From Acidimicrobiia bacterium (lineage in GTDB: Bacteria; Actinomycetota; Acidimicrobiia; IMCC26256; JAOSJM01): a stretch of 64,000 nt of DNA. Below, in pieces: positions 18,286 to 19,261 of this stretch. The stretch's first letter is position 1; every line of letters begins with the position of its first letter. Both the position numbers and the translations under genes were made by a program. Below the pieces are notes generated by a model. That model saw only the letters and a program-made list of their open reading frames with translations, was not told the DNA's origin and searched no databases. Where the stretch lies: positions 434,001 through 498,000 of the forward strand of contig JAOSJM010000005.1 of assembly GCA_027494165.1 (NCBI GenBank), read 5' to 3'.

Positions 18286-18358
18286 GGGGCTGTAGCTCAG
18301 TTGGTAGAGCGCTTGCATGGCATGCAAGAGGTCGGCAGTTCGATTCTGCTCAGCTCCA
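18286..18358 (+). tRNA. tRNA-Ala (anticodon GGC)
   Basis: GGGGCTG TA GCTC AGTTGGTA GAGC G CTTGC ATGGCAT GCAAG AGGTC GGCAG TTCGATT CTGCT CAGCTCC A; cloverleaf folds; 3' CCA not fully encoded. Confidence 0.95.
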
Positions 18359-18834
18359 CCCTCCGCACTGTAGGGTTCACGCTGGGTGGTGTGATCGCCG
18401 GTGAGGGCTCGTACCACACCGTGGCGACCTCGTCCCGGTTCCGTGACGGGAGCCCCAGGCGCCGCTTCGTGTTCCAGCTCGCGATGGCCGAGCGCGATCG
18501 GCCGCTCCTCGAAGCGCTCCGTGGTGTCCTGGGCTTCGGGTCGATCCATGTGCAGCGGCCGCGGCGTCCTCACCACCAGCCGGTCGCCGTGCTCACGATC
18601 GCGTCCCGGCGGGCTCATCACGCCGCCACGATCCCGTTCTCGGAACGCTTCCTCCTCCCCTGCGCGAAGCGACGGCAGTTCGAGCGTTGGCGCGACGCCC
18701 TGCTCGCCTACGAGAGGGATCTCGTGGCTCGAGGACTGCGCGGCCGGTCACGCTGCAGCGCGCCCGGCTGTGACCGCCCGGTGCGAGGACGAGGGCTCTG
18801 CCGGCGTCACTACTACCGTGCGACCGGCTACTGA
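18322..18834 (+). CDS. LAGLIDADG-type homing endonuclease-like protein A with C-terminal CCCH zinc finger (start codon uncertain)
   Basis: FTLGGVIAGEGSYHTV...LLEALRGVLGFGSIHVQ...PCAKRRQFERWRDALLAYE...CSAPGCDRPVRGRGLCRRHYYRATGY. No ATG/GTG between the tRNA 3' end and the motif; the in-frame ATG at 18322 lies inside the tRNA. Confidence 0.7.
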   Translation: MQEVGSSILLSSTLRTVGFTLGGVIAGEGSYHTVATSSRFRDGSPRRRFVFQLAMAERDRPLLEALRGVLGFGSIHVQRPRRPHHQPVAVLTIASRRAHHAATIPFSERFLLPCAKRRQFERWRDALLAYERDLVARGLRGRSRCSAPGCDRPVRGRGLCRRHYYRATGY

Positions 18835-19261
18835 CCTCGCGGCCTTCGTCGCCGGTCTCGTCGCCGGGGAGGGGACGTTCACGGTGACACAGGACCCCCC
18901 GAAGTTCGGCTTCGCGGTGGCGCTGGGCGCATCGGACGGCCGGACGTTGCGGATCCTGTGGGAGCTCTTCGAGGCGGGGACGATCCACTCGTCCCCCCGA
19001 CGGGCGGCCCACCACGACGACGTGGTCTGCTTCCAGGTGCGGAGGCTGCGCGACCTCGTGGAGGTGGTGGTCCCGTTCATGGACGAGCACCTGCCGCCGT
19101 CCCACAAGCGCCGGCAGTACCTCGCCTGGCGGGAGCGCCTCCTGGACCACTGGGAGCACCGGGCCCGCCGGCGCCGGCCGTGCACGGTCGACGGCTGCGA
19201 CGCGCCCCGCCGCGCCCACGGCCTCTGCCGCCGCCACCTGTACCGGCGCCACGGCGTCTGA
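18818..19261 (+). CDS. LAGLIDADG-type homing endonuclease-like protein B with C-terminal CCCH zinc finger
   Basis: VRPATDLAAFVAGLVAGEGTFTVTQDPPKFGFAVALGASDGRTLRILWELFEAGTIHSS...LPPSHKRRQYLAWRERLLDHWE...CTVDGCDAPRRAHGLCRRHLYRRHGV; overlaps the end of protein A by 17 nt. Confidence 0.82.
   Translation: MRPATDLAAFVAGLVAGEGTFTVTQDPPKFGFAVALGASDGRTLRILWELFEAGTIHSSPRRAAHHDDVVCFQVRRLRDLVEVVVPFMDEHLPPSHKRRQYLAWRERLLDHWEHRARRRRPCTVDGCDAPRRAHGLCRRHLYRRHGV

Follow-up and report, generated by a model that had tools for sequence, protein, structure and literature searches.

Organization of the locus

Two tandem genes for LAGLIDADG-like proteins, here called A and B, occur at the tRNA-Ala(GGC) gene of an Acidimicrobiia bacterium (genome G000; 4.4 Mb in 12 contigs, 86% complete), and the locus raises the question of what kind of element the pair forms and how its first gene is arranged with respect to the tRNA. 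The stretch of DNA analyzed, hereafter the window, comprises 64,000 nucleotides. An earlier note had described two adjacent ORFs with one LAGLIDADG-like motif each, a KRRQ(F/Y)xxW segment common to both, a zinc-finger-like C-terminal tail and a 17-nt overlap, and all of these were recovered in the sequence, the tail as a C-x4-C...C-x2-H finger. The same note placed A directly behind the tRNA and limited the feature to 18286-19261. The 3' end stands; the placement and the 5' end do not, since the conserved start of A at ATG 18226 precedes the tRNA, which lies wholly within A, and the feature therefore spans 18214-19261. What had been overlooked, as far as the sequence can be read, is that A encloses the tRNA, has a frame continuing across it, and takes its start at an SOS box.

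The neighborhood contains only leuS, A, B, hisH, and hisF. The leuS gene (15174-18155, minus strand; identified by translation) is divergent from the element and is a neighbor of both occupied and empty sites. It is followed on the plus strand by a -10 element, TACGAT (18214-18219), whose last T lies at -7 from the start codon of A, as in leaderless-type promoters, and by a LexA/SOS-box palindrome, CGAACATGTGTTCG (18221-18234), which overlaps this start codon. ORF A (18226-18834, plus strand, 202 aa) has an N-terminus followed in turn by a tRNA-encoded linker, a LAGLIDADG domain, and, last, a zinc finger. ORF B (18818-19261, plus strand, 147 aa) begins with GTG at 18818, 17 nt of overlap with A up to the stop of A at 18834, and encodes a LAGLIDADG domain and a zinc-finger-like tail; the overlap is kept in 9/9 intact pairs. 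The first gene 3' of the element is hisH (19354-19968, plus strand), which starts at +1068 from the first base of the tRNA.

The only tRNA in the window is tRNA-Ala(GGC), placed at 18286-18360 by ARAGORN, which reported it as uninterrupted, and at 18286-18358 (73 nt, plus strand; 67.4 bits) by Rfam RF00005. It is the single match in the genome assembly, and a pattern search returned one tRNA-Ala(GGC) gene in each of the occupied genomes. The 3' ends of tRNA genes are common integration sites, and the pair could in principle be cargo of an ordinary integrative element put there by an integrase. The anatomy of the locus refutes this: there is no integrase gene, element sequence stands on both sides of the tRNA, and no duplicated tRNA 3' end (direct repeat) was found between 18200 and 21000. 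Integrase-type insertion was rejected, and we give it next to no credence.

The reading frame of the first gene runs through the tRNA

ORF A begins 60 nt 5' of the tRNA with ATG TGT TCG GTC TGC GAT CAC TTC, translated as MCSVCDHF..., and its relatives carry (M/V)CSxCxx(F/Y)ExR at this position. From ATG 18226, the frame is open across the entire tRNA, which is read as GAVAQLVERLHGMQEVGSSILLSST, and into the LAGLIDADG domain; between the tRNA and the motif of A, the window has no ATG, GTG, or TTG except inside the motif itself. In 15/15 loci that retain the frame, the interval between the upstream start and the motif is divisible by three, while its parts vary in phase: the leader measures 60, 61, 63, 66, or 75 nt (remainder 0 or 1), the tRNA is 73, 74, or 75 nt long, and linker lengths range from 26 to 89 nt (remainder 0, 1, or 2). 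In G046 and G051, the tRNA is one base longer and the linker phase compensates, and G018 and G777 use the other open frame of the tRNA (GRSSVGRA...), with start and domain both shifted along. The rule also holds for a 16th copy, G952, which keeps the frame, and for the truncated G877, which keeps the phase; the frame is broken only in the decayed copies G788 and G888, both of which also lack a start codon. The 15 loci share ancestry and are not 15 independent draws; what counts for the frame rule is how many length changes arose independently, namely four loci with a shifted leader, tRNA, or linker phase together with several different linker lengths.

The stretch 5' of the tRNA is also conserved in the manner of a coding sequence. 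Over codons 4-12, variation by codon position was 0.43/0.44/0.57, highest at the third, and amino-acid identity was 0.386 in frame 0 versus 0.28 and 0.26 in the other frames (permutation p=0.0006). An upstream start of A was found at 0/16 empty sites. Phases were mixed when counted from the first base of the tRNA, from the position behind its 3' end, or across a sequence from which the tRNA had been removed. A start in or behind the tRNA, splicing, and bypass therefore do not account for the frame, whereas reading of the tRNA as codons does.

The first of these, translation of A only from inside or behind the tRNA, would use the ATG of the anticodon loop or a non-AUG codon and would make the upstream frame a by-product of GC-rich DNA and stop-free tRNA frames. 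tRNA genes do lack stops in two frames, a frequent source of annotation errors, and the anticodon ATG is in frame in most loci; it was the start codon favored first. It was dropped because it is out of frame in G018 and G777 and absent in G857 and G842. The linker phase counted from the tRNA 3' end takes all three values, and the upstream codons are conserved as coding and absent at empty sites. A tRNA-internal or downstream start is thus strongly disfavored by the frame table, and we regard it as very unlikely.

The tRNA might otherwise be spliced out or bypassed, in an intron-like manner or by ribosome hopping, yielding a protein without the tRNA-encoded stretch. Intron-encoded LAGLIDADG enzymes are common, and the tRNA-encoded residues 15-42 of A are predicted to be disordered. 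Removal of the tRNA, however, leaves the coding parts in phases 0, 1, and 2 across loci, and Rfam reported the tRNA only, with no intron. An intron- or intein-encoded enzyme was rejected on the same grounds, namely an uninterrupted tRNA and a frame that needs the tRNA to be read, and the chance that the tRNA is removed or skipped appears negligible.

The reading retained from the frame comparison is that ORF A starts 5' of the tRNA and that a single frame has been kept all the way across, so that one piece of DNA appears to specify a tRNA and, at the same time, a portion of a protein. The tRNA-encoded stretch may be a mere linker. Tryptic peptides of the GAVAQLVER type and of the LHGMQEVGSSILLSSTLR type are predicted from it. 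In addition, strong hairpins are present directly 3' of the tRNA inside ORF A in G916 (locus L116) and G259 (locus L129), e.g., ACGGCGCCGACTTCAGTCGGCGCCGT; they look like tRNA terminators or processing signals placed in the coding linker.

Predicted promoter and LexA box

The start codon of ORF A is the center of CGAAC-ATGT-GTTCG. Among the 15 occupied loci, a TANNNT element ends at -7 or -8 from the start in nine and at no other offset between -4 and -35, and the start codon is ATG or GTG in all 15, these being the only codons that start leaderless messages in mycobacteria (PMC4633059). A perfect GAACN4GTTC overlaps the start in 8/15 loci; it is absent in the other 7/15, and the palindrome is wholly lost in four or five (G041, G259, L003, G916, and, partly, G010). 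A pattern search of the window genome returned 32 sites for CGAACN4GTTCG versus 0 for a control pattern. These sites precede, among others, ruvC, a DnaE-type PHP gene, a uvrD-type helicase, an RNase T-type exonuclease, and DUF222-HNH genes; 13E12, RuvC, and DnaE2 are discussed in the SOS-box section for M. tuberculosis (PMC4181829). By pattern and position, this distribution is the LexA-box picture of actinobacteria, and the box at the promoter of A matches the boxes at the SOS-type genes of the genome, as in members of a LexA/SOS regulon. A start codon overlapping a LexA/SOS palindrome, with a -10 box at -7, implies that the message of ORF A is SOS-controlled and leaderless.

The tRNA has a probable -10 box of its own, TATGTT (18270-18275, plus strand), inside ORF A, and similar boxes, CTGGTANNNT or CTGCTANNNT, precede most empty-site tRNA-Ala(GGC) genes; the tRNA should therefore be makeable without A.

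Other boxes of the window genome were also inspected. Many LexA-type boxes stand before related genes in loci L142-L171, of the DUF222 (13E12-like) type in L156 and L171, which suggests an expanded SOS-controlled DUF222 (13E12-like) family in this genome. In L155, L159, and L164, several box-preceded genes carry CGAACGTGTGTTCG, with GTG TGT TCG (MCS...) inside the box, and, as for ORF A, a leaderless message might begin at this GTG. The ruvC gene (L152) may likewise start at a GTG inside its own box.

Fold, active site and paralogy of the two proteins

The two proteins are paralogous, with 33% identity (E=3e-21). The earlier note had proposed a search against LAGLIDADG profiles, and Pfam LAGLIDADG_1 (PF00961) was matched by 12/12 full-length A homologues (best 1.4e-10) and 12/12 B homologues. 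The A protein of the window alone scores 20.6-21.5 bits, just below the curated cut-off of 23.1, while its B protein lies above it (25.2 bits; 3.1e-5). A profile of A matched solved homing endonucleases in hmmsearch (best E=3.4e-24). AlphaFold models of A and B had a mean pLDDT of 79.5 and 88.6, and Foldseek related both models to I-OnuI, I-SmaMI, I-AniI, and the single-motif I-TnaI.

The motif of A, LGGVIAGEG (18382-18408, plus strand; alignment and PF00961), ends in the predicted catalytic Glu60, and that of B, VAGLVAGEG (18848-18874, plus strand; alignment), in the predicted catalytic Glu18. The active-site acids are placed where the note had expected them: the acid at the motif end is Glu in 12/12 B proteins and 11/12 A proteins, with Asp in the remaining A. 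By these models and alignments, both proteins have the LAGLIDADG homing endonuclease fold with the predicted catalytic acid kept.

The C-x4-C...C-x2-H finger ends most copies of both proteins and is missing in the B proteins of G842 and G259. In the window, the tail of A is CSAPGCDRPVRGRGLCRRH (18754-18810, plus strand; Pfam Zf_WRKY19, 3.9e-6), and that of B, read from the translation, is CTVDGCDAPRRAHGLCRRH (19181-19237, plus strand; a weak Zf_WRKY19 match and a PHROG HNH-associated finger). Zf_WRKY19 was found in 10/12 A homologues. These tails may provide extra DNA contacts, and assembly of A and B, whose genes lie in tandem and are presumably coupled through the conserved 17-nt overlap, as a heterodimer is plausible.

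Distribution, empty sites and decay

The genomes compared were mostly MAGs, and the named relatives are Acidimicrobiia/Actinomycetota MAGs. Counting weak relatives, the pair is present in 10/58 sampled genomes of the window's order, eight of which hold it at the tRNA. In a second order of the class, it was found in 10/298 genomes, and this order contributed nine more copies and one further decayed copy. The only matches in a phylum-wide sample were distant LAGLIDADG proteins lacking a tRNA, with no additional pair linked to one. One of the records examined (L005, CAMDCC010000123.1, titled Bifidobacterium breve) has the same size (8261) and match as contig C123 of G051, a relative from the order, and looks mislabelled.

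The tie to tRNA-Ala(GGC) that the note had surmised holds throughout, as every copy on a contig that extends as far as the tRNA stands at this gene. The leuS gene is divergent from the tRNA in the window's order, is directed towards it in G788, G888, G900, and L003, and does not adjoin it in G842 and G916. Since neighbors differ between occupied loci, the element keeps company with the tRNA and not with one neighborhood.

The locus comparison proposed by the note yielded empty alleles, including orthologous sites with the order leuS/tRNA-Ala(GGC)/hisH. In these, hisH starts +156 nt (G047) and +815 nt (G023) from the first base of the tRNA, as against +1068 nt in the occupied window, where A and B lie between. 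At the empty site of G047 (L140), CGAACGGACGTTCG stands about 90 nt 5' of tRNA-Ala and is possibly a relic of the SOS box of a lost element. G045, from the genus of the occupied G011, is without A and B, and its stretch 5' of the tRNA nearly matches the upstream coding segment of G011 (AACTTCGAATCCCGGGTCGCCGCTGGTATCGT against AACTTCGAATCCCGAGTCGCCGCTGGTATCGT), so that it reads as the scar left by an element since lost. Decay is common and is seen in the copies L003, G010, G041, G788, G888, and G952. On this comparative evidence, the element is optional, patchy, often decaying, and tied to tRNA-Ala(GGC). Like a free-standing homing gene, it is optional at one site, with orthologous empty sites and decayed copies.

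The same open reading frame through the tRNA would also be expected if the pair had been domesticated as an SOS-regulated host regulator or repair nuclease and did no homing. The LexA-type box is shared with repair genes, and some LAGLIDADG proteins, such as WhiA, act as regulators. This account is opposed by the patchy presence, the frequent decay and the G045 scar, as well as by the catalytic acids that have been kept and the fixed tie to one tRNA gene across different neighborhoods; we consider it unlikely, while still the most serious of the alternatives weighed here.

In the tree of A, G857 and G842 of the other order group with the window A and G003 (support 95/89), which suggests horizontal movement between the two orders; a tree test did not reject vertical descent (p-AU 0.29). 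Compared by eye, occupied and empty tRNA copies showed no fixed difference that would explain self-protection. A phage or plasmid carrier was rejected as well, as viral scans and phage records gave few and weak relatives: the scans returned only three weak ones for A and none for B, and in a tblastn search of phage records, only Halogranum tailed virus 1 matched. This virus carries a LAGLIDADG gene (KC292026 gene 104; about 4357-5473 in locus L106) with 36% identity to B, flanked by tRNA-Arg and tRNA-Asp within an extensive array of viral tRNA genes, and is another link between LAGLIDADG enzymes and tRNA genes.

Interpretation and comparison with known systems

Taken together, the locus is probably a free-standing homing endonuclease element of the LAGLIDADG type, in which the only tRNA-Ala(GGC) gene of the host lies inside the first gene. 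The best reading of the element is that it is SOS-inducible, probably heterodimeric, and wrapped round a probably essential tRNA gene. During normal growth, LexA would repress A, and the separate tRNA promoter within ORF A would supply the tRNA. Upon DNA damage, a leaderless mRNA carrying A, the tRNA, and B would be produced from ATG 18226. Transcripts matured by RNase P and 3'-end nucleases would give the tRNA and be lost as messages, and those translated before processing would yield A, with the 17-nt overlap coupling translation of B to that of A. The two proteins would each contribute one acid to a composite active site and would together cut an element-free tRNA-Ala(GGC) locus. Repair from the occupied allele would then copy in the sequences on either side of the tRNA simultaneously, in the manner of free-standing enzymes like SegB of phage T4.

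A stronger form of this proposal, which we put forward tentatively and rate somewhat below even, is that one gene serves as both mRNA and tRNA. Ribosomes would decode a complete essential tRNA, tRNA maturation and nuclease synthesis would be mutually exclusive fates of one SOS-induced transcript, and the pair would cleave this tRNA gene and thereby spread, being copied in on either side. A nuclease pair that copies itself onto both sides of the tRNA would thereby interlock the element with a gene that the host cannot lose.

LAGLIDADG enzymes are well known. The LAGLIDADG_1 enzymes I-OnuI, I-SmaMI, I-AniI, and I-TnaI have the same fold and the same motif with a catalytic acid as A and B. Unlike them, A and B are two overlapping single-motif genes with zinc-finger-like tails, associated with neither an intron nor an intein, and the first gene encloses a tRNA and has its start in a LexA box. 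SegB of phage T4 is free-standing, lies between the tRNA-Arg and tRNA-Ile genes, and targets the tRNA region (PMC2988022); it resembles A and B as a free-standing homing endonuclease of a tRNA region, and the free-standing enzymes of T4 are also curbed by RNA structure or processing. It differs in being a GIY-YIG enzyme encoded by a single gene in a phage genome, and a tRNA inside the ORF is not reported in that review. A putative tRNA-Pro-like gene is nested in the octocoral mitochondrial mutS gene (PMC11353228), a similar case of dual coding in that a putative tRNA gene lies within a protein-coding region. There, a putative tRNA-like feature lies in an old mitochondrial gene, whereas ORF A is an optional gene that contains a canonical, probably essential bacterial tRNA. 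The 13E12/DUF222-HNH family of actinobacteria comprises nuclease genes behind the same LexA box in this genome; unlike A and B, they have an unrelated nuclease fold and no tRNA association. In the open-licence papers found, a homing gene with a whole sense-read tRNA gene in its coding sequence is not described, and neither a homing ORF containing a tRNA nor an SOS-controlled LAGLIDADG enzyme was encountered there; a precedent outside these papers is possible.

If translation through the tRNA is true, the locus would provide a natural dual-coding RNA, in which one strand folds as a tRNA and is also decoded as protein, and competition between the ribosome and RNase P for one RNA would become directly testable. 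It would also illustrate how a selfish gene can settle in an essential tRNA locus with no need of an intron, and it would link homing with the SOS response, a state in which recombination is active. A warning for annotation is that ORFs running through tRNA genes should not be discarded as artefacts.
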